Assembly: GCF_010450875.1 (NCBI RefSeq)
Contig: NZ_CP048422.1
Span: 2,136,001-2,200,000 of the forward strand
Reading direction: 5' to 3'
DNA length: 64,000 nt
From: Sphingomonas insulae
GTDB taxonomy: Bacteria; Pseudomonadota; Alphaproteobacteria; Sphingomonadales; Sphingomonadaceae
A program made the translations under genes and the position numbers. Shown here in pieces: positions 1 through 22,677 of this stretch. The notes under the pieces are model-generated. The model was not told the origin of the DNA and ran no database searches. It saw only the letters and a list, made by a program, of their open reading frames with translations. Each line of letters begins with the position of its first letter. Positions within the stretch are counted from its first letter, which is position 1.

Positions 1-533
1 CAAAGCGAATCGATCTCCCACTTCCGCTCTGCGATGCCCGTTTTCATCACCGTCTCGTCGGCCTGCGACCATTCGAGGTCGGATTTGGCGGTCGGATCCG
101 CCATGAAGGCATTGGCGTAGGGGTCGATCAGGATGCAGCGCGATTGGCGCGCGATCAGACCGTGGAACAGGCGACGCAGTTCCGGGGCGTTCCTGGCAAG
201 ATGCAGGTAGGGCTTCACCTGTGCCGAACTGTCGCGCAGCCACAGCGCCTTGATGTCGCCGGTGATGACGAATGCGTCGGGCCGGCCGTCGATCGTGCTC
301 ATGGCGACGGTGGTGTCGAGCGTATTCGGGTAGCAATTGCCGAACATCCAGCGCAGCTTGTCATCGCCGATCCGGGCCGTGACGCGAGCCATTTCGCGCT
401 CCACCGCCGGGCTGGCGAAGCGGCGATCCTTCGGCGCCGGGCGTTGCGACGGGAATGCCGGTGCGGCGCGCGTCGGGGTCGCCGCTGCCGCAGCTGTGGC
501 GGCCGTGGCGGCGAGGAAATCGCGGCGGTTCAC
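1..533 (-). CDS. GH125 exo-alpha-1,6-mannosidase, 3' part missing (window edge)
   Basis: The reading frame starts at a GTG (533..531) and leaves the window at base 1, so only about the first 177 residues are seen. It opens with a twin-arginine export signal (MNRRDFLAATAATAAA). Blocks such as MFGNCYPNTLDTTV (about residue 65) and GDIKALWLRDSSAQVKPYL (about residue 90) are typical of glycoside hydrolase family 125. Family members remove alpha-1,6-linked mannose from N-glycan-like substrates; this specificity is inferred. The start overlaps the stop of the upstream GH3 gene as GTGA, so the two are probably translationally coupled. The catalytic acid lies beyond the window edge and cannot be checked. 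Confidence 0.85.
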   Translation of the reverse strand, partial: MNRRDFLAATAATAAAAATPTRAAPAFPSQRPAPKDRRFASPAVEREMARVTARIGDDKLRWMFGNCYPNTLDTTVAMSTIDGRPDAFVITGDIKALWLRDSSAQVKPYLHLARNAPELRRLFHGLIARQSRCILIDPYANAFMADPTAKSDLEWSQADETVMKTGIAERKWEIDSL

Positions 534-3073
534 TTCGGCAGTTCCGTATCCGTGCCGCTCACGGTGAAATCGAACCACCGGCCGGGGCCATCGCCCGGCT
601 GGCCGCCGCCGATCCACAGGCGATAGGCACCCGGCACGACGTGACGACGGCCGTCGCGATCGACGATGCTCATCGCGCGCGGATCGAGCGTGAAGCCGAC
701 GCGTGCCGTCTTGCCGCGTGCGATCGCCACCCGCTGGAAACCGACCAGCTGGCGTTGCAGGACGGGATCGGTGAACCCGCCCTCTGGCGGTGCGGGCGGG
801 ACCAGATAGGCCTGCACCACCTCTTCGCCGTCGCGCGCGCCGGCGTTGGTCACCATCGCTTCGATGCGCAGGTCGCCGCCAGCGGCGACGCTGTCAGGCG
901 CCCGCAGGCTGGCATAGGCGAACTGCGTGTAGCTGAGGCCGTGGCCGAACCCCCACAGCGGCGTGCCGGTGAAATAGCGGTAGGTCCGCTCCTTCATGCC
1001 ATAATCGACGAAGGCGGGCAGGTCGGTGGTCGCGCGGTACATCGTGACCGGCAGGCGCCCTGCCGGATTGACCGCGCCCGACATGACGTCGGCGAGCGCG
1101 GTGCCGCCGCTTTCGCCCGGATACCAATTGGCGAGGATCGCGTCGGCGGAGCCGGGATCGACCGCCACCGCGCTGCCGCTGGTGAGGACGAGGACGATCG
1201 GCTTGCCCGTCGCCTTCAGCGCGGCGAGCAGCCGTTGCTGCGGCAGGGGCAGCGCGATGTCGGTACGATCGCCGCCGACGAAGCCGGGGACCTGCACCGA
1301 CAGCGCCTCGCCCTCGAGGTCGGGCGACAGGCCGGCGACCACCACGGCGACGTCGGCATCGCGCACCGCCGCAACCGCTTGTGCCAGCAACGGCTCGGCC
1401 GGAGGGATCCAGAGCAGGCGGAAGCTTTCGTCCTCAGAACGGTGGTCGAGCGTCAGGTCGATCGGTTGCGGCGTGCCGTCGCTGTCGACCGCGACCTCGA
1501 CACGGCCCCTGGGCAGGTCGCCGTCGTGAAGCAGCCGGCCGCCGAGCGTCAGCGTGGCGCGGTCGTGGACCGTGCAATCCTTCCAGCATGGGGACTGGTC
1601 GAGGATCAGGCGGTATCGCCCCGGGCCGGGGGGCACGAAGGTGCCGGTCCAGCGGGCGCGATAGCCGGTGACGGGCAGGCCGGGAGCGGGCGCCGCGCGG
1701 TTGAGGTCGAAGTCGACGCGGCGATCCCGTCGGACCACCGGGGCGCCGTTCGCGGTATAGGTGGCGTGGAGGCCGGGCTGGCCATCGCTGCGCAGCGCGG
1801 TTTCGGGTAAGACGACAGCCGCCTCTTCGGCGAGCAGCGAGCCCTGCGCATAGGCGACGTTGGCGGGCCCGAAGCGGGCGCGCAGGCCGTCGAGCGGCGT
1901 CACCGGGTTCACTGCGGTGCCGTGGTAATTGCCTTGCAGCACGCCCAGGTCGTCGGCATCGGCACCAATCACGGCGATCCTCGTGCCCCTGGCGAGCGGC
2001 AGGCGACCGGCTTCGTTGCGCAGCAGGACGATCGACTTGCGGGCCGCTTCGAGCGCGGTGGCGCGATGCGCCGGGGTCGCGACCTGATCGGAGCCGATCC
2101 GCGCCCAGGGGCTGGTGGCACCGAATGCGATCCCGAGCGCCTGTCTGCCGCGCAGCGCGCGGGCAAGGGCGGTGTCGACTTCCGACTGGCTGACCAGTCC
2201 CTTCGCCAGTGCCTGTGGCAAGGCGGCATAGGCGGTGCCGCAATTGAGGTCGGTGCCGCCCCGGACCGCGGCGGCGGCGGCGCCGGCGGCATCGAGCCGG
2301 TAATGGTGAAAGGCGTGGATGTTCGACACGGCGTCGCAGTCGGACACGGTGAAGCCGGTGAAGCCCCAGTCGCGGCGGATGCGATCGTTCATCAGCCAGG
2401 ACGCGGCGCAGGCCGGCGTGCCGTGCAGGCTGTTGTACGCGCACATCAGCGATTGCGCCTTGCCCTCGACGACTGCGCGACGAAAGGCGGGCAGATAGGT
2501 CGCCTCCAGATCGCGCGGCGAGGGGTCGACGTCGAACCCGTCGCGTCCCGCCTCCGGCCCGCTGTGCACCGCGAGGTGCTTGGGCGTGGCGATGACGCGC
2601 GGATGGCGCGGGTCGGGACCTTGCAGCCCGCGGACGAAGCCGACGCCGAGCTTGCCCGTCAGATACGGGTCCTCGCCATAGGTTTCCTGTCCCCGGCCCC
2701 AGCGCGGATCGCGGAAGATATTGATATTGGGGGACCAGATGGTGAGGCCCTGATAGATGCGGCGGTCGGTGGCCACCGGCTGTGCGTTGAACCGGGCGCG
2801 TGCTTCGGTCGACACGATGGTGCCGACACGCTCCATCATGTCGACATCCCAGGTCGCGGCAAGGCCGATCGCCTGCGGGAATACGGTCGCTCGGCCGTTG
2901 CGGGCGAGGCCGTGCAGCCCTTCGTTCCACCAGTCATAGGCGGGCAGGTTCGCCTGCGCGTCCGCCGGGGCGGTGCTTTGCAATTGCGCCGCCTTTTGCT
3001 CGGGGCTCATCGCGGCAATGGCGGCGGTCACCGGATCGGCGGCCTGCGCGAGCAACAGGAGGGCGGGGATCAT
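530..3073 (-). CDS. GH3 beta-glycosidase with PA14 insert (xylosidase/glucosidase-like)
   Basis: This 847-residue secreted enzyme has a short hydrophobic N-terminus (MIPALLLLAQAA). The GH3 barrel carries YDWWNEGLHGLARNG near residue 46 and the nucleophile motif FTVSDCDAV with Asp245. A second alpha/beta domain follows, interrupted by a PA14-type lectin module at about 425-560 (FVPPGPGRYRLILDQSP), then a C-terminal fibronectin-III-like domain (about 740-815). The YDWWNE..HG motif is common in GH3 xylosidases and arabinosidases. Lying between beta-mannosidase and GH125 genes, it could remove the beta-1,2-xylose of plant N-glycans, but glucosidase activity is equally possible. It is not the small cytosolic NagZ, which lacks these added domains. 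It is co-directional with GH125 and overlaps its start. Confidence 0.88.
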   Translation of the reverse strand: MIPALLLLAQAADPVTAAIAAMSPEQKAAQLQSTAPADAQANLPAYDWWNEGLHGLARNGRATVFPQAIGLAATWDVDMMERVGTIVSTEARARFNAQPVATDRRIYQGLTIWSPNINIFRDPRWGRGQETYGEDPYLTGKLGVGFVRGLQGPDPRHPRVIATPKHLAVHSGPEAGRDGFDVDPSPRDLEATYLPAFRRAVVEGKAQSLMCAYNSLHGTPACAASWLMNDRIRRDWGFTGFTVSDCDAVSNIHAFHHYRLDAAGAAAAAVRGGTDLNCGTAYAALPQALAKGLVSQSEVDTALARALRGRQALGIAFGATSPWARIGSDQVATPAHRATALEAARKSIVLLRNEAGRLPLARGTRIAVIGADADDLGVLQGNYHGTAVNPVTPLDGLRARFGPANVAYAQGSLLAEEAAVVLPETALRSDGQPGLHATYTANGAPVVRRDRRVDFDLNRAAPAPGLPVTGYRARWTGTFVPPGPGRYRLILDQSPCWKDCTVHDRATLTLGGRLLHDGDLPRGRVEVAVDSDGTPQPIDLTLDHRSEDESFRLLWIPPAEPLLAQAVAAVRDADVAVVVAGLSPDLEGEALSVQVPGFVGGDRTDIALPLPQQRLLAALKATGKPIVLVLTSGSAVAVDPGSADAILANWYPGESGGTALADVMSGAVNPAGRLPVTMYRATTDLPAFVDYGMKERTYRYFTGTPLWGFGHGLSYTQFAYASLRAPDSVAAGGDLRIEAMVTNAGARDGEEVVQAYLVPPAPPEGGFTDPVLQRQLVGFQRVAIARGKTARVGFTLDPRAMSIVDRDGRRHVVPGAYRLWIGGGQPGDGPGRWFDFTVSGTDTELPK

Positions 3074-3098
3074 GCTGTCGGTCCCGTTTTGGGGGTGC

Positions 3099-3163
3099 GC
3101 GCGAAGACGCGACGGCGCGCGAGGGGAAAGTGTCGGTCACGCGAAGCCGCGGAGACGCGGAGG
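3099..3163. repeat. Intergenic repeat module, copy A
   Basis: A GC-rich module containing GCGAAGACGCGACGGCGCGC and then TCACGCGAAGCCGCGGAGACG. The reverse complement of 3279-3333 repeats the same blocks with small differences, so the two copies face each other in the 379-bp gap between the beta-mannosidase and GH3 genes. Such dispersed repeats are common in sphingomonad genomes. No coding function is apparent. Confidence 0.55.
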
Positions 3164-3278
3164 GAAGGCGCGGATGCGGGCGAGCATGGCGGCTGCTTAC
3201 GAGGATCGTCCAAGCCAACGCAGGCTCGACTACCATCGTGACGACACACGTCAGGCGTTCCGGGCGCAGCCCCTCCGC

Positions 3279-3333
3279 GCTTCCACGTCTCCGCGTGAAT
3301 CCCCTTTCTGCGCGCCATCGCGCCTTCGCGTGA
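3279..3333. repeat. Intergenic repeat module, copy B (inverted)
   Basis: Read on the minus strand this gives TCACGCGAAGGCGCGATGGC, a short AGAAAGGGGA spacer, and TTCACGCGGAGACGTGGAAG. The blocks match copy A at 3099-3163 in inverted orientation. The 3164-3278 stretch between the copies shows no gene. Confidence 0.55.
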
Positions 3334-3346
3334 CCATCGCCCCTCG

Positions 3347-3437
3347 CTTCCCCGGCGGGGGCCGTGGCCTAGTCGGGAAACCGCCACTGGCGAACACCCA
3401 CGGCCGCCCATCTTGGCCCCGGCCTTCGCCGGGGAAG
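3347..3437. repeat. 91-bp element with 11-bp perfect terminal inverted repeats
   Basis: CTTCCCCGGCG at 3347-3357 is repeated exactly in inverted form (CGCCGGGGAAG) at 3427-3437. The right end also contains a 7-bp stem hairpin, CCCCGGC-CTTC-GCCGGGG, at 3417-3434. The element has no coding capacity and sits just downstream of the beta-mannosidase stop, where it may also act as a transcript-end structure. It resembles REP or MITE-like repeats; no target duplication is obvious. Confidence 0.55.
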
Positions 3438-3452
3438 TGAAGGGGACGGCGA

Positions 3453-6035
3453 TCATCGCGCGAGCGTGCGCAGCACGGGGGTTTGCTTTCCGGACAAGGT
3501 CACCGTGACGCTCTCGCCGGGCAGCAGGTCGAAGCCGCTGTCGCTCGCCTGACCCGTCGTATCGCCCATGTCGACCATCACCGCACGGGCGAGGTTCTTT
3601 GCCGTGATCGTCGCGGTGTCGCCGGTACGGCGGAGGGTGAGGCCGGGGTCGGGATAGGCCATGTCCTTCGGCGGGAGGCGTTCGATCAGGGTGCGGCTGA
3701 CGACGCGCCGGTCGGTGCGGAATGCTTCAGGCACATCCGTCCTCACCATCAGTTCGGCGACGGCGTAACTCTTCGCCGGGTCGGCCGCGCCGAACAGGTC
3801 GGCATCGCTCAGCGTCGCGACGGTGGCCGCACTGAGCGGGGCCAGCGTCAAGTCCGCCTGTCGGGTATCGAGCGTCGCGCCGGTCATGTCGCGGACGACG
3901 ATCCGCCACGTGGCCTCGACCGGCGTGGTCGCATCGGACACCAGCGCGATGCGGGTGCTGCCATTGCGGCGTTCGGCGACGATCGCCTGCGGCGCGAATG
4001 CCCGCTTCGCCTCATATTGCAGCAATTTCCATTGGCCGAGATGATCGATGCTGGCCCAGCTGATCGACGGCCATACGTCGTTCAATTGCCAGAACAGCGA
4101 TCCCATCGTCACCGGCCGGCAGGCGCGATGATGGCGCGCGGCAAGGCCGATCGCCTGCGCCTGGTTGACCTGCGTCAGATAGACGAAGTCGGCGAAATCC
4201 TTCGCCGGCCGCAGCCGCTGGTCGAGATAGAGGCGCAGCCGGGCGTTGCCCTCGCCGGCCAGGAACTTCTGATGCGCCTTCATCACCGCGCTGTCGGGAT
4301 CGAGCGCGCCCTTGCCGGCAAAGCCGCGAATGGTCGCCATCGTCGGCATCGACTGGAAACCATATTCGCTCATGAAGCGCGGGCAGGAATCGAGATACGT
4401 CTCGACGGGCTTGCTGCCGGACCAGACGTCCCAGAAATGGCGGTCGCCGTTGGCGTCGGTATCGACCGGGCCTTCATAGTCGCTCGACGGCGATCCCGGC
4501 ATATAGGGTGTGCCGGGGCTGTTCGCGGTGACGGCGCCGCGCAGGACGCGATCGAACAGCACCGCCATCCCGGTGCCGATGCGTTCCTGCTGGTCGGGGC
4601 CGATCGCCGTCTTGTACGCCTTGCGGTCGCCCCAGTTTTCCCAGCCGGACAGCACTTCGTTGTTGCCCGCCCAGATCACGATCGAGGGATGATCGCCGAG
4701 CCGTGCGACCTGTTCGTCGGCTTCCGCCGCGACATTGGCGCGGAACGCGGCGTCGGGGGGCGTCACCGACCCGCCGAACATGAAGTCCTGCCATACCATC
4801 AGCCCCATCCGGTCGGCGGCGGCGTAGAAGGCGTCGTCGAGGTAATAGCCGCCGCCCCAGATGCGGACCATGTTCATGTTGGCGTCGCGCGCCGCCTTCA
4901 ACAGGCTTTCCGGTTCGGCGGGATCGACGCGCGCGGGGAAGCTGTCGAACGGGATGACGTTGGCGCCCTTGGCGAAGATCGGCGTGCCATTGACGACGAA
5001 GCCGAAGGCGCCATCCTTACGATCGATCGTCACCGTGCGCAGACCGATGGTCCGCGTCTGCGTGTCGCCGTCCAGCGTCGTGGCGACGGTGTAGAGCGGC
5101 TGCGCGCCATAGCCGACGGGCTGCCAGCGTTGCGGCCGCGCGATCGTTAACGGGATCGTCACCGGATTGCTGCCGGGGACGAGCGTGATGCTGCGCCGGA
5201 CCGTATCACGGGTTCCGTCCGGCGCGGTGACGGTGGTGGTGAGCGTCACCGCCTTCGTCGTGTCGGCGACGATCGTGGCATGGGCGGTCAGCCGCGCCTC
5301 CGCATCCGACAGCGCATCCTGCGCGACCCGGACGTGGTCGAGCCGGACGTCGTCCCATGCCTCCAACCGGGCGGGCCGCCACAGGCCGGTGGTGACGATG
5401 CGGGGACCCCAATCCCAGCCGTACTGGTATTTCGGCTTGCGGATATACGGGCTGGTCTGCACGCCCTTCGGCTCGTCGCCGAACGCGCTGTCATATTCGC
5501 CGGGAAGCGGATGCGCCTCCTTCATCACCATCGGCTGCAACGTCCTGATCGGCGAGGCGATGCTGACCAGCACCTCGTTCGCGCCGACGTGCAGCAGCGG
5601 CTTGGCGTCTGCACGCCAGCGGCGGTGGGCATTGTCCGCCTTCAGCAACGGCCGGCCGTTGACGGCCACGGCCGCAAATGTGTCGAGGCCGTCGAACACC
5701 AGATCGAGGTGGCCGTGCGCGAGCATCGCGGGCGTCACGGTCAGCCGGGTGCGGAACTGCCATGCCGACAGGCCCGCCCATTGGATTGCGCCCTCGTTGG
5801 TGCCGATGAACGGATCGGGGACGCGCTTTGCGCGGATCAGGTCCTGCTGGACGCTGCCGGGCACCTGCGCCGCGAACCATTTCGCCTCGCGCGGGTGCGC
5901 CCCGATCGCCGCGCTATCGGCCGGATCGAGCCGGACCTGCCAGTCGCGATCGAGCGGGATCGTGTCGCGCGCGGCGAGCGGCGAGGTGGTGAGCAACAGC
6001 GCGAGGGCGAGGGCGAGGGCGGGGGCGCGCTTCAT
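3453..6035 (-). CDS. GH2 beta-mannosidase
   Basis: This 860-residue secreted enzyme begins with a clear Sec signal peptide (MKRAPALALALALLLTTSPLAA). The GH2 architecture is complete: a sugar-binding jelly roll (about 25-220, with PKYQYGWDWGPRIVTTG), an immunoglobulin-like domain and a TIM barrel. WAGNNE places the acid/base at Glu460 and SEYGFQS the nucleophile at Glu557. The WDWGPR motif is typical of beta-mannosidases. It would hydrolyse terminal beta-mannose, for example the Man-beta-1,4-GlcNAc bond of the N-glycan core. Its ATG overlaps the stop of the hexosaminidase gene as ATGA, so the two are coupled. The next gene downstream (GH3) lies 379 bp away beyond a repeat cluster. Confidence 0.9.
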   Translation of the reverse strand: MKRAPALALALALLLTTSPLAARDTIPLDRDWQVRLDPADSAAIGAHPREAKWFAAQVPGSVQQDLIRAKRVPDPFIGTNEGAIQWAGLSAWQFRTRLTVTPAMLAHGHLDLVFDGLDTFAAVAVNGRPLLKADNAHRRWRADAKPLLHVGANEVLVSIASPIRTLQPMVMKEAHPLPGEYDSAFGDEPKGVQTSPYIRKPKYQYGWDWGPRIVTTGLWRPARLEAWDDVRLDHVRVAQDALSDAEARLTAHATIVADTTKAVTLTTTVTAPDGTRDTVRRSITLVPGSNPVTIPLTIARPQRWQPVGYGAQPLYTVATTLDGDTQTRTIGLRTVTIDRKDGAFGFVVNGTPIFAKGANVIPFDSFPARVDPAEPESLLKAARDANMNMVRIWGGGYYLDDAFYAAADRMGLMVWQDFMFGGSVTPPDAAFRANVAAEADEQVARLGDHPSIVIWAGNNEVLSGWENWGDRKAYKTAIGPDQQERIGTGMAVLFDRVLRGAVTANSPGTPYMPGSPSSDYEGPVDTDANGDRHFWDVWSGSKPVETYLDSCPRFMSEYGFQSMPTMATIRGFAGKGALDPDSAVMKAHQKFLAGEGNARLRLYLDQRLRPAKDFADFVYLTQVNQAQAIGLAARHHRACRPVTMGSLFWQLNDVWPSISWASIDHLGQWKLLQYEAKRAFAPQAIVAERRNGSTRIALVSDATTPVEATWRIVVRDMTGATLDTRQADLTLAPLSAATVATLSDADLFGAADPAKSYAVAELMVRTDVPEAFRTDRRVVSRTLIERLPPKDMAYPDPGLTLRRTGDTATITAKNLARAVMVDMGDTTGQASDSGFDLLPGESVTVTLSGKQTPVLRTLAR

Positions 6036-8368
6036 CGAGCGGCCTCCGTCAGCTGGACGCGGCCGACGGTGTAGAACGGGTCCTTGATCGGCGAGGTGAA
6101 CTGGAAGCAGACGTCCTGGTCGCCGGCCATCGCGGGCAATGTGCCCTTGAAGCTGAACTGCTGTGGCGCGGTGCGGGGATCGGGGAGGGGGAAGGCGCCC
6201 GCGGCGACCGGCCGTGCCGTCTTGTCGCCCGCCGCCCGCGCCTTGGCCGCGGCGATGCAGCCGACCTGGACGAGCAATTCGCCGTGGTCGGAGACGTTGT
6301 AGTGTTCCTTCACCATCGCGGCTTCGTGCGCGAGGCCGTAATGGCGGGCGAGACGGACGACATCGACCGTATAACCGCGCGCGATGTCGAGCGGGGCGGC
6401 GGGGTAGAGCGTGCAGGTGTCGAACAGGTTGATGTTGAACACCGGCGCATTGTCGCGCGATTCCGACGTGAGCGGCACGCGCAGGCCAAGGTCGCCGGCA
6501 GGACAGGCGGCCATGTCGGAACTAGTGCGCGCCAACAGCGCGGACCGCGACGTATCGAAGCTGCGTATCCCGGCGGTCGCATGGCCGTTCGCATCGAAGG
6601 CCGCCGCGCGGACGATCGCGCCGGACTTCAGCGACAGCGGCTTGCCATAAGCGGCCGACCGGGCGGTCGGGGTGCTGCCGTCGGTGGTGTAGCGGATGGT
6701 GCCATAGGGGACCTGCGTGGCGAGCGTCAGCGGCACCCGATTGCGGCGCAGCGCATCGCCGCGGGTCCCGTCGACCTGGATATCCACCGCGAACGCACTG
6801 TCGGCGACGTGCATGCCGCCGCGGCTCCAGCGATCGCCCTGCCGCTGCACGCGGGGCAGGAACCCGGCGAAGTCGCGCTTGTCCTTCGGCGACCAGGTGA
6901 TTTCCGCCACCGCCCCGGCCCGCGGGAAGATGAGGTGCTGGAGCTGATAGGGCGTGACGATATATTCGCTCCACAGATTGCCCTGCGCGCCGAGCACGTG
7001 CTTCGCCTTGTCCGCCGGGATGCCCGCGGGCATCGGATCGTAGGTGTAGACCTGCTCCAGCGTCATCGGCGCGAAGCGGCCGGGCGGTTCGTCGGCAAGG
7101 CGGCTCTGCGAATAATTGAGGTACAGCGGCGTGCCGGGCGACAGCACGACGTCATGCCCCTGGTTCGCCGCATCCACCGCGCCCTGTTCGCCGCGCCACG
7201 ACATGATCGAGGCGGAAGGCGGCAGGCCCCCCTCGAGGATCTCGTCCCAGCCGATCAGGCGGCGGCCTTTGGATTGCAGGTAGGTGCCGAACTGGTCGAT
7301 CATCCAGCTTTGCAGGGCATTTTCGTCCTTGATGCCGAGCGCCTTCATCTGCGCCTGCACCTCGGGGCTGCGCTGCCACTGGTCCTTCACCGCCTCGTCG
7401 CCGCCGAGGTGCACATAGGTGCCGGGGAAGATGGTCATCAATTCATCGAGCACGTCCTTGACGAATGCGATGCCCTTCGGCCCCGGATTGAACAGATAGG
7501 GCATGATCCCCCAATTGTTGCTGACCGCCGGCGCATCGCCGAGAATGCCGAGTTCGGGATAGGCGGCGACCAGCGCCTGCGCATGGCCGGGCAGGTCGAT
7601 CTCCGGGACGATGGTGATGCCGCGGGTGGCGGCATAGACAACCAGTTCCTTCAATTCGGCCTGGGTATAGAAGCCGCCGACCTTTTCGGTCGGTTGCGCG
7701 CCGCCGGTCCACGGCGGCAACCGCCACCCGCCGACCGCGGTCAGCTTCGGATACTTCCTGATCTCGACCCGCCAGCCCTGGTCGTCGGTGAGATGCAGGT
7801 GGAGCGTATTGAGCTTCACCGCCGCCATCTGGTCGACGATGGCGCGCAGGGCCGGCATGGGGAGGAAATGGCGCGCCGGATCGATCATCAGGCCGCGCCA
7901 TGCGAAACGCGGGGCATCGGTGATGGTGAGCGCCGGTACCGCAACGGGCTTGCCAAAGGCGGTGTCGGGGCTGAGCAATTGTGCGAGCGTCATCGCGCCG
8001 TGGACCAGGCCGCGATCGCCCGAGGCGGCGACGACGATGCCCTGCGGCGTGACGGCAAGGCGATAGGCTTCGTCGCCGGGGACGGCGGGGTCGCGGACGA
8101 AGCGGATCGGACCTGCGGCGCCGGGCACCAGCGTCAGGCCGCGTTCGGCCGCGACGTGGGCGGTCAGCAATGCCGCCGCAGCGGTCGCGCCGGCATCGCT
8201 GGCGACGATCGCCGCGCCATTGCCGATGGTGATGCTGCCGGCCGCGCGCACGACCGACTGCGGCATCGGCAGCAGCGGCAACGCCGTTTGGGCATGGGCC
8301 ATGGCCGGCACGAGCAAGGCGAGCGCCGCTCCCCCGACGATGGTCGCGATACCGGCGTTCTGCGTCAT
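6032..8368 (-). CDS. GH20 beta-N-acetylhexosaminidase
   Basis: The product is 778 residues from ATG 8368, preceded by AAGGGG; an upstream in-frame ATG at 8518 would place the signal peptide internally and is rejected. A signal peptide ends near AMAHAQ (residues 22-27). A GH20b-type N-terminal domain precedes the barrel, which shows GLMIDPARHFLP, HLHLTDDQGWR and YVHLGGDEA with the catalytic pair Asp324-Glu325. A C-terminal beta-sandwich follows. The enzyme releases terminal GlcNAc or GalNAc, here from chitooligosaccharides or N-glycan antennae and core. The freed GlcNAc fits the NagE/NagA/NagB-II pathway encoded on the other arm. It leads the minus-strand glycosidase operon and has GGTAT repeats just upstream. 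Confidence 0.92.
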   Translation of the reverse strand: MTQNAGIATIVGGAALALLVPAMAHAQTALPLLPMPQSVVRAAGSITIGNGAAIVASDAGATAAAALLTAHVAAERGLTLVPGAAGPIRFVRDPAVPGDEAYRLAVTPQGIVVAASGDRGLVHGAMTLAQLLSPDTAFGKPVAVPALTITDAPRFAWRGLMIDPARHFLPMPALRAIVDQMAAVKLNTLHLHLTDDQGWRVEIRKYPKLTAVGGWRLPPWTGGAQPTEKVGGFYTQAELKELVVYAATRGITIVPEIDLPGHAQALVAAYPELGILGDAPAVSNNWGIMPYLFNPGPKGIAFVKDVLDELMTIFPGTYVHLGGDEAVKDQWQRSPEVQAQMKALGIKDENALQSWMIDQFGTYLQSKGRRLIGWDEILEGGLPPSASIMSWRGEQGAVDAANQGHDVVLSPGTPLYLNYSQSRLADEPPGRFAPMTLEQVYTYDPMPAGIPADKAKHVLGAQGNLWSEYIVTPYQLQHLIFPRAGAVAEITWSPKDKRDFAGFLPRVQRQGDRWSRGGMHVADSAFAVDIQVDGTRGDALRRNRVPLTLATQVPYGTIRYTTDGSTPTARSAAYGKPLSLKSGAIVRAAAFDANGHATAGIRSFDTSRSALLARTSSDMAACPAGDLGLRVPLTSESRDNAPVFNINLFDTCTLYPAAPLDIARGYTVDVVRLARHYGLAHEAAMVKEHYNVSDHGELLVQVGCIAAAKARAAGDKTARPVAAGAFPLPDPRTAPQQFSFKGTLPAMAGDQDVCFQFTSPIKDPFYTVGRVQLTEAAR

Positions 8369-8390
8369 GACAGCCCCTTGGTTCTGTTTT

Positions 8391-8404
8391 GGTATTGAAG
8401 GTAT
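8391..8404. promoter_or_regulatory. Candidate NagQ operator upstream of GH20 gene
   Basis: Two direct GGTAT repeats (8391-8395 and 8400-8404, 9 bp apart) lie 23-36 bp before the hexosaminidase ATG. Similar repeats precede the TonB receptor and the PTS fusion. GntR/HutC repressors of amino-sugar regulons bind sites containing TGGTAT-like half-sites, so this is a plausible operator. Binding is inferred, and the spacing differs from the other two sites. Confidence 0.4.
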
Positions 8405-8443
8405 CTTGCCGGAGCGATCCGGCGGCGTCCATGCCCGACGATT

Positions 8444-11389: not shown

Positions 11390-11516
11390 AGGACATTCCT
11401 TATTCGGAACATGCCCGGTCGCATGTCCCCCCCAACCCGAAGCTGCCGCGAAGCCGGCGACAGAGCGGAACGACGGACCTCTTTCTGGCCTCGTATCGGT
11501 TCCGATAGTTTTTCTT

Positions 11517-11532
11517 ATAACCAATCCATACC
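11517..11532. promoter_or_regulatory. Candidate NagQ operator in receptor promoter
   Basis: On the minus strand GGTATGGATTGGTTAT gives GGTAT and GTTAT 11 bp apart, matching 12 of 16 bases of the site before the PTS fusion (18406-18421). It sits 128-143 bp upstream of the receptor ATG in an A/T-rich stretch between the divergent arms, where it could also affect cutC. Confidence 0.4.
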
Positions 11533-11664
11533 CAATGACCTATAAAAAATTTGTCATAATTGGATTTTCATGGAACCGCCCCGGTTTCCGGCCGTAAGCA
11601 AGTGTCGGGAAGTGTGGTTTCGACGATCGAAACCGACAGTGCAGGGGGCGAGCGAGCAGTATTG

Positions 11665-12438: not shown

Positions 12439-12512
12439 AAGGCGCCGCTGGCGCTACTCCGCGAGCCGTGGCACCGATCCGGTGCAACGGCGCGTGGAAG
12501 AGGGAGTCGACG

Positions 12513-13250: not shown

Positions 13251-13272
13251 CACCGCCTGGGGGGCGCGATCT

Positions 13273-15440: not shown

Positions 15441-18343
15441 CGATAGACCGGCGGCAACTGATGGGGGCCGCCGGTGCAGGCCTTGCGATGACCCTGCCCG
15501 GCGGGGCGGCAGCGGCACACTCGTCGCGATATGGCGCCTTGTCGATGCCGGTGCCGGGCGATGCCTTGCCCCGGCCGTTGCCGATCGTCGACCCGTCGCG
15601 GATCGGGTTCGACCAGGGCTGGCTGTTCCACGAGGGCGATGTCGTCGTACCGCCGGCGACGACGCACGAGGAAACATACATCCGTGCCAAGGCCGGCAAC
15701 GCCAGGGGTGCGGCGGCCATCGACCATGACGACAGCGACTGGTCGCCGGTGACGCTGCCGCACGACTGGGCGAGTTTCCAGCCGTTCGTCGAAACCGCCA
15801 ACCCGTCGCAGGGCTATCGCCCGCGCGGCATCGGCTGGTACCGCCGCACCTTCCGCCTCGATGCGGCGGACGAGGGCAAATATCTCGAATTGCAGTTCGA
15901 CGGCATCGCCACCAACGCGACGATCTGGGTCAACGGCAGCATCGTGGCGCACAATTGGTCGGGCTACAACAGCATCTACATCGACATCACGCCGTTCGCG
16001 CGCTTCGGCGATCGCACCAATGTCGTCGCGATCCGCGTCGATGCGGAGGCGATGGAGGGCTGGTGGTATGAAGGCGCGGGCCTGTACCGCCACGCGTGGC
16101 TGGCCAAGCGCGCGCCCGTGGCGATCGTCACCGACGGCGTGCATTGCGACCCGCGCCGGACCGGTGACGCATGGCACGTGCCGGTGACGGTCACCGCCCG
16201 CTCGATCGCCGCGGCACCCGCCGATGTGGTCGCGCTCGCCAGCCTGATCGATCCCGCCGGGCGCAGTATCGCCAGCGTTCGTTCCGCCCCGGTGACCATC
16301 GCGCCGCTCGAACAGGCGGACCTCGCCCTGTCGATCCCCGTGCCGTCGCCGATGCTGTGGTCGGTGGAAGCGCCGACCCTCTACACCGTCGTGGTGACGC
16401 TGGAACGCGGCGGCGCGGTGGTCGATGCCCGGCACGTACCAGTTGGGTTCCGCACGATCCGTTTCGATCCCGCGCAGGGGCTGTTCGTCAACGATCGGCC
16501 GGTCAAGCTGAAGGGCGTGTGCCTGCACCTCGATCATGCCGGTGTCGGTACGGCGGTGCCGGACGCGCTGCTGGCATGGCGGCTGGAGCGGCTGAAGGAA
16601 CTCGGCTGCAACGCGATCCGCTGTTCGCACAATGCGCCCGCCACCGCGTTCCTGGACCTGTGCGACCGCATGGGCTTCCTCGTCATGGACGAGAACCGCA
16701 ATTTCAATCCCGCGCCCGATTACATGGCACAGCTGGAATGGCTGGTACGGCGCGATCGCAACCATGCCAGCGTCATCCTGTGGTCGGTCTTCAACGAGGA
16801 ACCGATGCAGGGCACCGCCGCGGGCGTGCAGATGGTGCGGCGGATGGCGGCGGCGGTGAAGCGGCTGGACGACAGCCGGCCGGTGACGGCGGCGATGAAC
16901 GGGTCGTTCTTCAACCCCGCCAACGTCTCGACCGTCGTCGATGTCGTCGGCTTCAACTATTATCCGGGCGATTACGACAAGTTCCACGCGCTCAATCCGG
17001 ACAAGCCGATCACGAGTTCGGAAGATACCAGCGCCTTCATGACGCGCGGCGCCTATGCGACCGACGCCGCCGCCCATGTCCTGTCGTCGATGGACGACGA
17101 GGCGGCGGGATGGGGCGAGACGCATCGCAGCGGCTGGGCCAAGATCGCCACGCGGCCGTTCGTCGCCGATGGCTTCGTGTGGACCGGGTTCGACTATCAT
17201 GGCGAACCTACGCCGCATGCATGGCCGACGATCGCCAGCTTCTTCGGCATCCTCGACCTCTGTGGTTTCCGCAAGACCGCCTATGACATCCATCGCGCCG
17301 GGTGGGTCGATGACGCGCCGGTCGTCGGGATCGCGCCGCACTGGACGTGGCCGGGCCGGGAGGGGCAATCGATCCCGGTATTGGTGACCAGCAACGCCGA
17401 CCGGATCGTCCTTTCGTTGAACGGCCGGATCGTCGGGGATGCGGCGGTCGACCGGTTGATGGGCAACAGTTTCCGCGTGTCCTACGCACCCGGCATATTG
17501 GAGGCGATCGCCTATCGCGGCGGACGCGAGGTCGCACGCGCGGGGCACGAGACCGCCGGAGCGCCCGCGGCGTTGCGGTTGACGCCGGCGCGCCGGGTGA
17601 TGACGGGCGATGGCGAGGACGTGCAGCCGGTCACCGTCGATGCGATCGACGCACGCGGGCGGCACGTGCCGAACGCGAACCTGCCGGTGCGCTTCGCGGT
17701 CGTCGGCGCGGCCATCATCGGCGTCGGCAACGGCGATCCCAACAGCCACGAACCGGAAAAGGGCGATGCCCGATCGCTCTTCAATGGTCTGGCGCAGGTG
17801 ATCGTGCAGGCAGATGCCGCGCCGCGCGGCACGATCGTGTTGCGGGCCAGTGCGCCGGGGCTGACGCCCGCCAGTCTGCGGATCGACCGGATCGCGCGAG
17901 CCGCCGGGCCGCAGGTTGCGCCGGCCGTGGCGCTGCGCACCATCGATGGCTGGCGCCGGTCGCCCTTGCTGCCCGCCCGTCCCGATCCCGCACTGGCGCC
18001 GGCGGATGGCGACAACAACAGCTGGGCCTTCGTGCGCAGCGGCACCGCGACGCCGGCAGAGGCGGCCGGGGGCTGGCAATTGTATCGTGCGCGGGTTGCG
18101 CCGGTGCGGGCGGTCGCCGCCCATGGCGGACGCATCGTGTTCGCCGGCGTGGCGGGGCGCGCCGAACTGTGGGTCGATGGCCGCAAGCTCGCCGACACGG
18201 GCGGACCGGCAACCGGCCCGATCGACGTCGCGCTGCCGCCCGGAGCCGGCGAGCGGACGGTCTTGCTGATCGTTCGACCGGAGCCGGGGCAGCCATCGGG
18301 CATCGTCGGTCCCGTGGAGATACGGCCGCTGGACGCGCGCTAG
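15437..18343 (+). CDS. Tat-exported GH2 beta-galactosidase
   Basis: The product is 968 residues from GTG 15437, overlapping the nagA stop. A twin-arginine signal (TIDRRQLMGAAGAGLAM) marks it for export folded. A GH2 sugar-binding domain (LPHDWASF, RGIGWYRRTF), an Ig-like domain and the barrel follow, with acid/base Glu454 in WSVFNEEP and probable nucleophile Glu529 in SSEDTS. A C-terminal DUF4982-like segment, a Big-type module (about 710-810) and a final galactose-binding-like domain make it long. Removal of terminal beta-galactose from N-glycan antennae would expose GlcNAc for the GH20 enzyme; the substrate is inferred. A secreted hydrolase translationally tied to cytosolic nagA is unusual. 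Confidence 0.85.
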   Translation: MTIDRRQLMGAAGAGLAMTLPGGAAAAHSSRYGALSMPVPGDALPRPLPIVDPSRIGFDQGWLFHEGDVVVPPATTHEETYIRAKAGNARGAAAIDHDDSDWSPVTLPHDWASFQPFVETANPSQGYRPRGIGWYRRTFRLDAADEGKYLELQFDGIATNATIWVNGSIVAHNWSGYNSIYIDITPFARFGDRTNVVAIRVDAEAMEGWWYEGAGLYRHAWLAKRAPVAIVTDGVHCDPRRTGDAWHVPVTVTARSIAAAPADVVALASLIDPAGRSIASVRSAPVTIAPLEQADLALSIPVPSPMLWSVEAPTLYTVVVTLERGGAVVDARHVPVGFRTIRFDPAQGLFVNDRPVKLKGVCLHLDHAGVGTAVPDALLAWRLERLKELGCNAIRCSHNAPATAFLDLCDRMGFLVMDENRNFNPAPDYMAQLEWLVRRDRNHASVILWSVFNEEPMQGTAAGVQMVRRMAAAVKRLDDSRPVTAAMNGSFFNPANVSTVVDVVGFNYYPGDYDKFHALNPDKPITSSEDTSAFMTRGAYATDAAAHVLSSMDDEAAGWGETHRSGWAKIATRPFVADGFVWTGFDYHGEPTPHAWPTIASFFGILDLCGFRKTAYDIHRAGWVDDAPVVGIAPHWTWPGREGQSIPVLVTSNADRIVLSLNGRIVGDAAVDRLMGNSFRVSYAPGILEAIAYRGGREVARAGHETAGAPAALRLTPARRVMTGDGEDVQPVTVDAIDARGRHVPNANLPVRFAVVGAAIIGVGNGDPNSHEPEKGDARSLFNGLAQVIVQADAAPRGTIVLRASAPGLTPASLRIDRIARAAGPQVAPAVALRTIDGWRRSPLLPARPDPALAPADGDNNSWAFVRSGTATPAEAAGGWQLYRARVAPVRAVAAHGGRIVFAGVAGRAELWVDGRKLADTGGPATGPIDVALPPGAGERTVLLIVRPEPGQPSGIVGPVEIRPLDAR

Positions 18344-18405
18344 CGCGCCGTCGCGTCATCCGACAGGTGGTGTGCCAAAGGATCGTCACATCAACGACAC
18401 ACAAT

Positions 18406-18421
18406 GGTATGCAATAGGTAT
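18406..18421. promoter_or_regulatory. Candidate NagQ operator upstream of PTS genes
   Basis: GGTATGCAATAGGTAT contains two direct GGTAT repeats 11 bp apart, one helical turn. It lies 58-73 bp before the start of the PTS fusion gene, in the 135-bp gap after the galactosidase. The flanking bases ACAAT and ATTGT also mirror each other. Together with the matching site at 11517-11532 it is the best operator candidate in the locus. Confidence 0.45.
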
Positions 18422-18478
18422 TGTCAGTACGCGAAGCCGCGATACACTGCACCGACGATGACCGGATTAGGAATGCGA

Positions 18479-20977
18479 ATGACGGACGTGCAGCTGGTGG
18501 CGCCACTCGCAGGATGGGTCCTGCCGCTCGCTGCCGTGCCGGATCCCGTGTTCGCGGAAGGCATGATGGGGCCGGGCATCGGCATCGATCCGATCGGCGA
18601 CACGCTGCACGCACCGTGCGATGGAATAGTGCTGACCGTCCATGCGGCCGGGCATGCCGTGACGCTGGACGCCGGACACGGCATGTCCCTGCTGATGCAT
18701 ATCGGCGTCGACACCGTCGCTTTACAGGGCAAGGGTTTCGAGCCGCTCGTCACACCGGGCGCCCGGGTGGCTGCCGGCGACCCGCTGATCCGGTTCGATC
18801 TGGATGGCGTGGTTCAGGCCGCCCCCTCCGCCGTCACGCCGGTGATCGTGATCGAAGGGGAGGGCGTCGCGCTGCTCGACGTGGCGGCCGAAGGACTGGT
18901 GGCGGTCGGCGATCCCCTGTTCCGCATCGTTGCTGCCGATGATGCCGGCGGGACCGGCCGCATCGTCGGCGACATGGTCAGCCGCGATACCGTCGTCCTG
19001 CTGCCTCACGGCCTCCATGCGCGGCCTGCGGCCCGCATCGTCGCCGCGGTCCGGGCGAGCGGAGCAAACGTGACGATCCGCAGCGGCGAACGATCGGCCG
19101 CCGCGACCAGCCCGGTCGCCCTGCTCTCGCTGGGGTTGGCGTCGGGCGCACCGGTGACGATCGAGGCGCGGGGCGGCGAGGCGGCGGGGGTGATTGATAC
19201 CATCGCCACGCTGCTGAGCGCCGAGGTCGACGCCGGGCCAGCATCCGCACCCGTACCCGCACCTTCGGTCCGCCAGCCGGCCATCGTCGCGGAGCCCGGC
19301 GCGATCGGCGGCGTGGCCGCGGCACCGGGGCTGGCGATCGGACCGGCCTATTGGTTGCACGTCGCGACGCCCGACCTGCCGGCGAACGGCGAGGGGGTCG
19401 CGGTGGAACGGGCCCGGCTGAGCGAGGGCCTGACCGCCGTCGCCGCGGCGTTGGATATGGCGGCGACCGAGCCCGGACAGATGCGGGGCGTGCTCAACGC
19501 CCATCGCGCCATCCTGGACGACCCCGATCTGCGCGCCCGCGCGGACGCGGCGATCGCCAACGGCATGAGCGCCGCGGCAGCGATGATGACGGCAGCGGAG
19601 GCGCAGGAGGCGCAACTGCGCGCATCCGGCAATGCGCGCATCGCCGAACGTGCCGACGACATTCGCGATGTCGCCCTGCGCGTGGTCCATGCGATCCTCC
19701 GTACCGAACCTGCGGCCCTCAGTGTGCCGGCGGGGGCGATCGTACTGGCGCACGACCTGTTCCCGTCGCAGCTGGCGGCGCTGGCGGACCTGAAGGTCGG
19801 CGGATTTGCGGTGGCGGGCGGCGGACCGACATCGCACGTCGCGATCCTGGCGGCGGGTATGGGCGTGCCGATGGCCGTGGCGTTCGGCGATGCGATCGAC
19901 GCCGTCACCGATGGCGTGACGGTGTTGCTGGATGCCGATGCCGGCACTTTGGTCGCCGATCCTGCGCCCGAACGCGTCGCCGCCGTCCGGTCGATCATGG
20001 CCGCGCGCGCCGCGGCAGAGGCGGCCGCGCTGGTGGCGGGCGATCGTCCCGCGGCGACCGCCGACGGTGTGCCTGTCCACGTCTTTGCCAATTTGGGCTC
20101 GGTTACCGACGCCCGCAATGCGGCGGCGATGGGTGCCGAAGGCTGCGGCCTGCTCCGCACCGAATTCCTCTTCCTCGACCGGACCACGCCGCCCGATCAT
20201 GAGGAACAAGCCGCCGAATACCGCGATGTCGTCGCGGCGTTGCCGGGGCGACCGGTGGTGATCCGCCTGCTCGATGTCGGCGGTGACAAGCCGGCGACAT
20301 ATCTCGCCATTCCGGCGGAGGAAAATCCGGCACTTGGCCTGCGCGGTATCCGCGTTGCGCTCGCCCGCCCCGAAATCCTCGACGCGCAATTGCGCGGCAT
20401 CCTGGCGGTGCCGGATGTCGATCGCTGCCGGATCATGGTGCCGATGGTCGCCAACGTCGACGAGATGATCGCGGTCCGCACCGCGCTCGACCGGTTACGT
20501 GGCGAATTGGGCATCGGTCCCGTGCCACTGGGGGCGATGATCGAAACGCCGGCGGCGGCGGCGACTGCCGACCTGATCGCGCGTCATGCGGATTTCCTGT
20601 CGATCGGCAGCAACGACCTCACGCAATATGTGCTGGCGATGGATCGCGGCAATCCCGCCCTTGCCGCGGGTATCGACGGACTGCACCCGGCCGTGTTGCG
20701 GCTGATCCGGATGACTTGCGAGGGCGCCGCTACCCGCGATGTCCCGGTCAGCGTGTGCGGCGGGCTTGCCGCCGATCCGCTGGCGGCGCCGATCCTGATC
20801 GGGCTCGGCGTCCGCACCCTGTCGGTGCCGCCCGCCCGCATCCCCGCCACCAAGGCGCTCGTCGCCGGACTGACTCTCGCCGCCGCGCGAGACCTGGCGG
20901 ACCGCGCGCTCGCCGCCCGGGACGCTGCCCGGGTGCGCGACCTTGCCCGCCGTTTCGCCGAGGAGTCCGGCCGATGA
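18479..20977 (+). CDS. nagF: PTS EIIA-HPr-EI fusion protein for GlcNAc uptake
   Basis: The product is 832 residues from ATG 18479 (AGGA six bases upstream). It joins three PTS proteins in order: EIIA-Glc type (about 1-160, active His74 in MHIGVDTVALQGKGF), HPr (about 165-255, His180 in GLHARPA) and enzyme I (about 280-830, His453 in GGPTSHVA, and SIGSNDLTQY near the end). A single polypeptide thus carries phosphate from phosphoenolpyruvate to the permease NagE, whose gene overlaps it as ATGA. Such fusions are known in the GlcNAc pathways of sphingomonads and xanthomonads. The HPr segment lacks an obvious need for HPr kinase control. Confidence 0.93.
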   Translation: MTDVQLVAPLAGWVLPLAAVPDPVFAEGMMGPGIGIDPIGDTLHAPCDGIVLTVHAAGHAVTLDAGHGMSLLMHIGVDTVALQGKGFEPLVTPGARVAAGDPLIRFDLDGVVQAAPSAVTPVIVIEGEGVALLDVAAEGLVAVGDPLFRIVAADDAGGTGRIVGDMVSRDTVVLLPHGLHARPAARIVAAVRASGANVTIRSGERSAAATSPVALLSLGLASGAPVTIEARGGEAAGVIDTIATLLSAEVDAGPASAPVPAPSVRQPAIVAEPGAIGGVAAAPGLAIGPAYWLHVATPDLPANGEGVAVERARLSEGLTAVAAALDMAATEPGQMRGVLNAHRAILDDPDLRARADAAIANGMSAAAAMMTAAEAQEAQLRASGNARIAERADDIRDVALRVVHAILRTEPAALSVPAGAIVLAHDLFPSQLAALADLKVGGFAVAGGGPTSHVAILAAGMGVPMAVAFGDAIDAVTDGVTVLLDADAGTLVADPAPERVAAVRSIMAARAAAEAAALVAGDRPAATADGVPVHVFANLGSVTDARNAAAMGAEGCGLLRTEFLFLDRTTPPDHEEQAAEYRDVVAALPGRPVVIRLLDVGGDKPATYLAIPAEENPALGLRGIRVALARPEILDAQLRGILAVPDVDRCRIMVPMVANVDEMIAVRTALDRLRGELGIGPVPLGAMIETPAAAATADLIARHADFLSIGSNDLTQYVLAMDRGNPALAAGIDGLHPAVLRLIRMTCEGAATRDVPVSVCGGLAADPLAAPILIGLGVRTLSVPPARIPATKALVAGLTLAAARDLADRALAARDAARVRDLARRFAEESGR

Positions 20978-22677
20978 ACGCCCCCCGCTTTTCGGCCATG
21001 GCCTTCCTCCAGCCGCTGGGCCGCGCGCTGATGCTGCCCATCGCGGTGCTGCCGATCGCCGGACTGCTGCTGCGGCTCGGCCAGCCCGACCTGCTTGACA
21101 TCGCCTTTCTCAGCGCTGCCGGCGATGCGATGTTCGCCAACCTCGGCCTGCTGTTCGCAGTCGGCGTCGCGACCGGCTTCGCCCGGGACGGCAATGGCGC
21201 CGCAGCGATGGCGGGCGTGGTCTGCTACCTCGTATCCACCAACGGCGCACAGGTGTTCCTGAATGTGCCGGCCGCGACCCTGGCGAACGTGCCGGACGCG
21301 CTCGCCGCCGGCGTCTCGACCGCGTGGAAGGCTGCGGCGATCGATCGTCTGGAGGTGCCGGTCGGCATCGTCTCGGGGTTGGTGGGCGGATTGTTCTACA
21401 ATCGCTTCGCGACGTTCAAGCTGCCGGATTATCTCGCCTTTTTCGGCGGGCGGCGGTTCGTGCCGATCATCGCGGGCATCGCCGGACTGGTGATCGCGCT
21501 TGCCCTCGGGCTCAGCTATGCGCCGATCAACGCCGGTATGGACGCGCTTAGCAACGGTGTCGTCGCGGCGGGCGGGTTCGGCCTGTTCGCGTTCGGCGTG
21601 CTCAATCGCCTTTTGCTCGTAACCGGCCTCCATCACATCCTGAACAACGTCGCCTACTTCGTCGTCGGAGACTACCAGGGCAAGACAGGCGACCTCACCC
21701 GCTTTTTCGCCGGCGATCCGACGGCCGGCGGCTTTATGAGCGGCTTCTTCCCGGTGATGATGTTCGGCCTGCCGGCCGCCTGTCTCGCCATGTACCATGC
21801 GGCCGCGCCCGACCGCCGCAAGGCCGTGGGCGGCATGCTGTTCAGCCTGGCGCTCACGTCGTTCCTGACCGGGGTGACCGAGCCGATCGAATTCAGCTTC
21901 ATGTTCCTGGCACCCGTGCTCTACGCGATCCACGCGGTGCTCACCGGCCTGTCCGAAGCGCTGATGAACGCGCTGGGGGTGAAGCTCGGCTACGGATTCT
22001 CCGCGGGTCTGTTTGATTACGTGCTGAACTACGGCAAGGCGACCAAGCCGCTGCTGCTGATCCCGATTGGCGCGGTCTATGCCGGCATCTATTACGGCCT
22101 GTTCCGCTGGACCATCGTCCGCTTCGATTTGCCGACGCCGGGGCGCGAGGCGCTCGACACGGTGCCGGCGGGACCCGTGGTGGCGGCGGACGACAAGGCG
22201 GCGGCTTTCGTCGCGGCTCTGGGCGGCGCTGCGAACCTGCGTGCCATCGACGCCTGTGCTACGCGGCTTCGGCTGTCGGTGGTGGATGCGACCGCGATCG
22301 ACGAGGCAAGGCTGCGGCAACTGGGCGCCCGCGGCGTGCTTCGTCCTTCGCCAACGGCTGTGCAGGTGATCGTCGGCGGCATAGCGGATGGCCTCGCGAT
22401 GGACATGCGCACCGCGATGGATGCCGTGCCGATGTCTGGCACGTCCGCCGTATCGCCACCGGCATCGGCAGCGACGCCTGCCATGGCGACCGTGCCGGCA
22501 TCGCTTCTGGCGGCACTGGGTGGTCGCGACAATATCGGCGCAGTGTCGCGTCACGGCACCCGGCTGCGCATCGTCGTCGCCGATCGGACCCTCGTCGATC
22601 TTGCGAGCTTCGACGGCAGTGTCCGTACCGCCGCGTGGGTTGGGGCGGACACGCTTCACATGTTGATGCCCGCCTGA
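20974..22677 (+). CDS. nagE: PTS GlcNAc permease EIICB with a second, degenerate EIIB
   Basis: A 567-residue membrane permease. The EIIC domain (about 1-375) has about ten hydrophobic segments and the motifs ITG-like VTGLHHILNN and GVTEPIEFSFMF. The first EIIB domain (about 405-475) has the phosphorylated Cys428 in IDACATRLRLSV. A second EIIB-like domain (about 508-567) repeats the fold (ALGGRDNIGAVSRHGTRLRIVV) but has His527 where the cysteine should be, so it cannot use the normal phosphocysteine chemistry. The permease imports GlcNAc with phosphorylation to GlcNAc-6-phosphate. It is coupled to the EIIA-HPr-EI gene by an ATGA overlap. EIIA is supplied by that fusion. Confidence 0.93.
   Translation: MNAPRFSAMAFLQPLGRALMLPIAVLPIAGLLLRLGQPDLLDIAFLSAAGDAMFANLGLLFAVGVATGFARDGNGAAAMAGVVCYLVSTNGAQVFLNVPAATLANVPDALAAGVSTAWKAAAIDRLEVPVGIVSGLVGGLFYNRFATFKLPDYLAFFGGRRFVPIIAGIAGLVIALALGLSYAPINAGMDALSNGVVAAGGFGLFAFGVLNRLLLVTGLHHILNNVAYFVVGDYQGKTGDLTRFFAGDPTAGGFMSGFFPVMMFGLPAACLAMYHAAAPDRRKAVGGMLFSLALTSFLTGVTEPIEFSFMFLAPVLYAIHAVLTGLSEALMNALGVKLGYGFSAGLFDYVLNYGKATKPLLLIPIGAVYAGIYYGLFRWTIVRFDLPTPGREALDTVPAGPVVAADDKAAAFVAALGGAANLRAIDACATRLRLSVVDATAIDEARLRQLGARGVLRPSPTAVQVIVGGIADGLAMDMRTAMDAVPMSGTSAVSPPASAATPAMATVPASLLAALGGRDNIGAVSRHGTRLRIVVADRTLVDLASFDGSVRTAAWVGADTLHMLMPA

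Follow-up and report, generated by a model that had tools for sequence, protein, structure and literature searches.

Do the glycosidase genes and the N-acetylglucosamine (GlcNAc) phosphotransferase genes that share one locus in Sphingomonas insulae form a single system for N-glycan utilization? The locus was found in a 64-kb stretch of DNA, hereafter the window (bases 2136001-2200000 of contig C4; genome size 3.74 Mb), and it spans approximately 28 kb, with a GH29 gene (C4:2130741) at one end and NagE (window position 22677) at the other. Its minus-strand arm carries GH125 (cut at base 1 of the window), GH3, GH2 beta-mannosidase, GH20 and TonB-dependent receptor genes, and the divergent plus-strand arm carries genes for CutC, a GntR regulator, NagB-II, NagA, a GH2 beta-galactosidase, a fused EIIA-HPr-EI and NagE. 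To the left of the window, the GH125 gene is completed; next come the genes for GH92 (an alpha-mannosidase) and GH29 (a fucosidase that carries an F5/8C domain), and after them unrelated genes. A preliminary description of the window had noted that the cluster runs past base 1 and that GH92 or other mannosidases might follow, and GH92 was indeed found there. It had also proposed a search of the flanking sequence for other families, of which GH29 was found on the left and GH18 is absent from the locus. Every family that it named was recovered by Pfam (GH125, GH3, two GH2, GH20, TonB receptor, EIIA-HPr-EI, EIIC-EIIB, GntR/UTRA, SIS and amidohydrolase).

We conclude, with a probability of about 0.78, that the locus unites a nix-type N-glycan system with a GlcNAc phosphotransferase route under NagQ control. 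The substrate is probably plant complex N-glycans, as judged from the protein families. Glycans or glycopeptides would cross via the TonB receptor, and exported exo-enzymes would trim them in sequence before the inner membrane is crossed, with GH29 releasing fucose, the GH2 enzyme GalA galactose, GH20 GlcNAc, GH92 and GH125 alpha-mannose, GH3 core xylose and the other GH2 enzyme beta-mannose. NagE with EIIA-HPr-EI would import and phosphorylate free GlcNAc, which NagA would deacetylate and NagB-II would deaminate to fructose-6-phosphate. Control of both arms probably lies with a GntR repressor (NagQ) that would act at tandem TTGGTWT repeats. The GlcNAc-Asn stub would be opened by a glycosylasparaginase whose gene lies outside the locus, and this pathway probably includes CutC as a further enzyme.

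Conservation of the two arms and their operators

We compared the best 80 loci retrieved by a beta-mannosidase search, with flanks of up to 10 kb that were in many cases ended by contig ends. The order GH20-GH2-GH3-GH125-GH92-GH29, all on the same strand, was present in 22 of the 80 loci. A NagQ homologue was found in 35 loci, including all 22 with the full order, and a phosphotransferase system (PTS) gene lay within the stretch in 18. Genera with this layout include Sphingomonas, Sphingobium, Azospirillum RU38E and Niveispirillum, with near versions in Novosphingobium. The combined two-arm locus recurs in Sphingomonadaceae and some Azospirillaceae, and NagQ-like tandem operators precede both arms, which supports the preliminary view that glycosidases and PTS share one locus. 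A Nitrospirillum locus (L043) is closer to the Xanthomonas layout, having glycosidases with GH18, GH35 and another GH29 and lacking nag genes over a distance of 10 kb. Named relatives place the genome in Sphingomonas, and the nearest of them is Sphingomonas sp. UBA978 (89% in the beta-mannosidase).

Within the genus, 26 of 61 Sphingomonas genomes encode an orthologue of the GH2 beta-mannosidase (61-100% identity), a count that omits two matches at 37-40% identity (a second copy in G046, and G003). All 26 also encode the fused EI, at a distance of less than 16 kb from the orthologue in 18 of them. The idea that a TGA splits some PTS genes was rejected: in the two such genomes that were fetched, EI is encoded by a single open frame, so the TGA probably marks the end of the gene.

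Operators were sought with a 30-base matrix trained on 58 TTGGT[AT] sites that precede NagQ genes at other loci, with the window and L011 excluded. Of all sites in the 64 kb, the three with the highest scores stand upstream of the receptor gene, the GH20 gene and the PTS operon, and so before both arms. By eye, each consists of a pair of direct half-sites with an 11-base period. The fourth site, at 31285 (13.7 bits), lies outside the locus. In 60 first-order Markov sequences, sites of at least 14 bits occurred on average 0.27 times per 64 kb, with a maximum of 2. In the literature, NagQ sites take the form of tandem repeats, and the NagQ core consists of nagA, nagB and PTS genes (PMC5343134; this and the other papers cited were available in excerpt, and what we say of them applies to those excerpts). 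The S. insulae GntR regulator gene is likewise accompanied by tandem-repeat sites, to which its product is predicted to bind. Perfect gapped palindromes were also sought as the form of the NagQ operator and yielded no convincing motif; the search for a tandem motif did. Because some of the other loci scanned may come from species that also supplied training loci, the window provides the cleaner test of the operators.

The pattern TTGGKWNNNNNTTGGTW has three exact matches in the genome, of which the two in the locus are matches by construction, because the pattern was written after seeing those sites. Allowing up to one mismatch gave 19 genome matches versus 18 for a reversed control, which is no enrichment. 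The third exact match (C4:1600905-1600921) has no recognised sugar gene among the adjoining open reading frames (ORFs).

The enzyme set and its probable substrate

The locus combines a TonB receptor with glycosidase families suited to fucose, GlcNAc, alpha-mannose, xylose and beta-mannose, the linkages being predicted from family membership. Catalytic motifs are present in GH20 (HLGGDE), GH3 (SD) and GH2 (NNEV and SEYG). The beta-mannosidase aligns with PDB 6bye/6byc over almost its full length (3e-257), and we take these structures to be of the Xanthomonas citri enzyme; with matching enzyme activities, these best PDB hits bear out the proposed relation to the Xanthomonas N-glycan cluster. The nearest PDB entries for GH29 are 8ayr, 5k9h and the alpha-1,3/4-fucosidases 3ues/3mo4, and for GH92 the nearest is 7zgm. 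A paper on plant N-glycans mentions 7zgm and reports on a GH92 alpha-1,3-mannosidase that tolerates core xylose (PMC9522356); in our reading, 7zgm is that enzyme. Twin-arginine motifs or hydrophobic N-termini were seen on GH29, GH92, GH125, GalA, GH2, GH3 and GH20 (start at 8368), and an export-type N-terminus was looked for and not seen on CutC, NagA, NagB and the PTS enzyme. Pfam scans of the locus genes found no SusD-type domain, hence no SusC/SusD pair of a Bacteroidota Sus-type polysaccharide utilization locus. A PNGase model matched nowhere at all, a result that we do not count as evidence of absence.

The other arm has the content of a NagQ/PTS operon, namely NagA, NagB-II, EIIA-HPr-EI and NagE. 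Active residues are present, with motifs in EI (TSH), HPr (GLHARPA), EIIA (MHIGVD) and EIIB (DACATRLRL). NagA, EI, EIIA, HPr, NagE and GalA passed NCBIfam curated cut-offs. The GntR regulator reached no listed NCBIfam GntR equivalog cut-off, and therefore the name NagQ rests on context and operators. NagE also has a second, C-terminal EIIB-like domain that carries another residue in place of the phosphorylated cysteine (SRHGTRLR); the cysteine is missing there in five of five other loci compared.

Several observations weigh against a joined system for plant N-glycans. The two arms were not observed side by side in 8 of the 26 orthologue-bearing genomes, lying more than 280 kb apart in two and on different contigs in six. 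Single scores in random sequence reached 19.4, exceeding the window's best of 16.4; site position therefore counts alongside score, 10.6% of the window being intergenic by our own gene calls. Curated cut-offs were missed by NagB-II (331 of 430 bits) and by GH3 as xylosidase Xyl3A (728 of 1250 bits). In our own alignment and register, GH92 keeps the His of the H-x-E-S +1 subsite of the plant-specific enzyme and lacks its Glu and Ser (cf. PMC9522356). GH18 and GH85 searches found no endoglycosidase: GH85 had no match, and GH18 had none in the locus and a single genome match in a 1140-aa ORF 338 kb away. Pfam scans of the locus genes also revealed no catabolic genes for freed fucose, xylose or galactose.

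If the glycosidases instead targeted high-mannose or fungal mannan-type glycans, GH3 and GH29 would serve to remove side chains from other polymers. High-mannose glycans and mannan are also substrates of GH92 and GH125 enzymes (PMC10154615), and a further GH92/GH125 locus is present in the S. insulae genome. However, the presence in one locus of GH20, a GH29 close to alpha-1,3/4-fucosidases, a beta-galactosidase and GlcNAc catabolism suits a complex N-glycan better, and Pfam scans of the locus genes found no GH76 or GH99 endomannanase; we regard the mannan alternative as quite improbable. The nag/PTS arm could also be an ordinary operon for scavenging chitin or GlcNAc that merely lies beside an N-glycan cluster. 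In 14 of the 61 genomes an EI-type PTS is present and the GH2 gene absent, so the PTS is useful on its own. This explanation is improbable in view of the fused EI in every genome with the GH2 orthologue, its proximity in 18 of them and the similar operators upstream of both arms.

CutC in the company of N-glycan and GlcNAc genes

The cutC gene (11662-12435) was not listed in the preliminary description. CutC matches PF03932 in sequence and fold, and CutC structures in the PDB range from Shigella to human. In a fold comparison, no listed row below CutC itself revealed a function; the absence of other families there is uninformative. In the 61 Sphingomonas genomes, CutC was present in all 26 with the beta-mannosidase versus 6 of 35 without it, and glycosylasparaginase in 25 of 26 versus 3 of 35, although Fisher tests on these counts ignore the kinship of the genomes. 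All 28 glycosylasparaginase genomes encode CutC, and four genomes have CutC and no glycosylasparaginase; the class was set by an E-value band, supported by the S. insulae protein and 12 fetched members (69-92% identity to it), excluding Asparaginase_2 fragments of G002, G003, G023 and G054 (1e-34 to 1e-42) and including the also fragmentary G041. CutC is missing in 10 of 12 genomes that have the fused EI and neither the GH2 orthologue nor a GH125 gene near EI.

The S. insulae glycosylasparaginase (C4:183534-184520) matches 1p4k at 2.1e-94 versus 6.6e-31 for the best isoaspartyl peptidase, and has the autoproteolytic HD-Thr site with HDTIG conserved. Its gene lies 1.96 Mb from cutC and has no upstream operator site at a threshold of 12.5; such sites do occur upstream of the glycosylasparaginase gene in L119 and L127. 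In 16 of the 28 genomes no more than 1.5 kb separates the start of CutC from that of glycosylasparaginase, and in L111 asparaginase-CutC-NagB-NagA-EI-NagE form a single run. Moreover, two single-protein fusions of CutC with NagB-II are encoded in one genome (L115, L124), and CutC and SIS were fused in 14 of 17 matches to a search directed at the CutC portion of a fusion of this type. Glu15, Arg72, His135, Arg136 and Asp139 are kept in every alignment row that covers the column, and Cys38 is missing in some.

Two further variants were observed. A subset of the CutC-NagB fusions (L124:8395-10179, P0011-P0015) lost Glu36 and Cys38, and G001 has both an intact and a changed fusion. In G049, a ROK kinase-NagA-NagB-CutC-MFS transporter run without a PTS (L116:5897-11125) is another kind of GlcNAc operon that includes CutC.

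CutC was found in 33 of 249 Pseudomonadota genomes, S. insulae included, and we examined the other 32 loci. Glycosylasparaginase is present in five (L142, L145, L156, L157 and L161, with L156 from the same genus); in L139, CutC is directly upstream of GH2-GH3-GH125-GH92. NagA occurs with SIS/NagB and ROK genes in L158 and L160, and a ROK kinase in L141 and L149. Ten of the 32 loci thus have a sugar link, two by ROK alone, where weak GH2 matches approximately 6 kb from CutC (L143, L144) were counted as no link and an EI match at 26% (L147) was not counted as PTS. The run GH92-transporter-GH2-CutC-GH85-glycosylasparaginase in L161 (G224:C4:385001-400000) is an N-glycan locus with its own endoglycosidase.

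CutC has been read differently elsewhere. The Xanthomonas nix region includes cutC, interpreted as copper resistance, with an asparaginase nearby (PMC6718126, PMC5700972), and the sources that give CutC a function name copper homeostasis. A copper protein in an incidental position would also fit the 22 of 32 Pseudomonadota loci at which our query set counted no clear sugar neighbour. We consider this unlikely, given the co-occurrence with glycosylasparaginase and beta-mannosidase, the fusion to a NagB-II-type domain, and the loss of the conserved Cys in some members while the five residues named above persist. The better-supported reading is that CutC works in the catabolism of GlcNAc or N-glycan stubs in these bacteria, and we hold this with modest confidence. 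Glycosylasparaginase yields 1-amino-GlcNAc, whose further step is taken as non-enzymatic in Lactobacillus casei (PMC6960285). CutC might conceivably remove the amine from 1-amino-GlcNAc or its 6-phosphate and pass GlcNAc-6-phosphate to NagA/NagB; this reaction is a conjecture, and a doubtful one. We found no paper in the literature searched that joins CutC functionally with glycosylasparaginase or NagB. The company that CutC often keeps with glycosylasparaginase, NagB-II and N-glycan glycosidases provides a concrete and cheap handle on the function of its family, and following it up would also reveal whether N-glycan turnover has a dedicated enzyme for the glycosylamine step.

Gene layout and comparison with known systems

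Features of the S. insulae locus in window coordinates, unless a locus handle is given
Feature	Position	Strand	Evidence
GH125 alpha-1,6-mannosidase, 5' part, Tat-type signal	1..533	-	continues left; PF06824 4.5e-149 and TAT signal (L010:1112-2617)
GH125, whole gene	L010:1112-2533, or to 2617 with longer start		best PDB 3p2c
GH3, xylosidase-like	530..3073	-	PF00933/PF01915; best NCBIfam Xyl3A, below cut-off; best PDB beta-xylosidases
Inserted repeat between GH2 and GH3, non-gene	3074..3452	.	73% similar segment at same junction in L011
GH2 exo-beta-mannosidase	3453..6035	-	Pfam; PDB 6bye E 3.4e-257; NNEV, SEYG
GH20 beta-N-acetylhexosaminidase, signal-peptide-like start at 8368	6032..8368	-	PF00728 1e-111; HLGGDE
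Tandem NagQ-like operator directly before GH20	8373..8402	+	14.0 bits, third best of 64-kb window
TonB-dependent receptor	8603..11389	-	PF00593, PF07715
Tandem NagQ-like operator, receptor/CutC divergent promoter region	11511..11540	-	16.4 bits, best of window
CutC family TIM-barrel protein	11662..12435	+	PF03932 2e-56 on longer ORF 11560-12435; AlphaFold2 pLDDT 92.7
GntR/UTRA regulator, NagQ by context	12468..13250	+	PF00392, PF07702
NagB-II type glucosamine-6-phosphate deaminase (SIS)	13273..14307	+	NF046059 331 bits, below 430 cut-off
NagA, GlcNAc-6-phosphate deacetylase	14304..15440	+	amidohydrolase; TIGR00221 268 bits, cut-off 225.65
GH2 beta-galactosidase GalA, Tat-like motif	15377..18343	+	NF041462 1097 bits, cut-off 900
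Tandem NagQ-like operator before PTS operon	18399..18428	+	15.0 bits, second best of window
Fused EIIA-HPr-EI	18458..20977	+	Pfam; NCBIfam above cut-offs; active-site histidines
NagE, EIIC-EIIB and second EIIB-like domain	20974..22677	+	TIGR01998 595.5 bits, cut-off 553.2

MAPEG and PHO4 genes lie to the right of the locus. Of 15 relatives mapped, 12 have overlapping GH2 and GH3 genes; in S. insulae, and likewise in L011, the two genes are parted by a 379-bp element with internal inverted repeats. A 128-aa ORF at 3070-3456 was rejected as an operon gene, as it had no Pfam match, was not picked by a codon-based gene finder and lies inside the repeat insert. Promoter and terminator scans of 2900-12600 gave nothing above shuffles.

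Several relatives encode a strongly conserved protein of approximately 734 aa between GH92 and GH29 (L025:18841-21045, L016:17390-19615, L119:6816-9017). The L025 member has no Pfam, NCBIfam or PDB match, and N-terminal traces of GH67N or GH20b were seen in 3 of 120 listed homologues. The protein is encoded in 6 of the 61 Sphingomonas genomes, each with the beta-mannosidase, and is absent from the S. insulae genome; it may represent an uncharacterised glycosidase family. The second S. insulae locus (C4 ~3253000-3276000; L008, L009) carries four GH92 genes with GH125, GH43, GH2, TonB receptor, two ROK and 3-keto-disaccharide hydrolase genes.

The S. insulae locus is a nix/nag-kind system in a new arrangement, with CutC as its unexpected element. 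In the portions of the literature examined, the combined design has so far been described in separate pieces. If our interpretation is true, common plant-associated Sphingomonas can convert the sugars of plant glycoproteins to fructose-6-phosphate by a self-contained route that has one regulator and a phosphotransferase. In Xanthomonas, by contrast, the available excerpts describe nix and nag as two clusters. The glycosyl hydrolase NixF, presumably of GH18 type, has no counterpart in the S. insulae locus, and a further difference is that the S. insulae beta-galactosidase belongs to GH2. The likeness extends to the TonB receptor, the alpha-L-fucosidase NixE, hexosaminidase NixG, beta-mannosidase NixH, alpha-mannosidase NixK, beta-galactosidase NixL and further hydrolases of X. 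campestris/citri, and to cutC with its nearby asparaginase (PMC6718126, PMC5700972). GlcNAc enters Xanthomonas via the MFS protein NagP and not by a PTS (PMC13055268).

NagQ-regulated nag/PTS operons of Proteobacteria, including Caulobacter nagRFE-nagABDC, share NagA, NagB, a PTS transporter and a GntR regulator with a tandem motif (PMC5343134, PMC13055268). The regulon expansions named in those excerpts are chitin genes, whereas in S. insulae an N-glycan exo-glycosidase operon is attached. Lactobacillus casei alf-2, which acts on fucosyl-GlcNAc-Asn, similarly combines glycosylasparaginase, a GntR regulator and GlcNAc phosphorylation, but it uses an MFS permease and a ROK kinase, and CutC is not mentioned in the excerpt (PMC6960285). 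The plant N-glycan enzymes of Bacteroides massiliensis include a GH29, a GH3 beta-1,2-xylosidase that acts after GH92, and a GH92 alpha-1,3-mannosidase (PMC9522356). That set is dispersed over scattered loci with SusC/D and PNGase, in contrast to the single S. insulae locus, which lacks a SusD-type domain and joins its glycosidases to a GlcNAc phosphotransferase.

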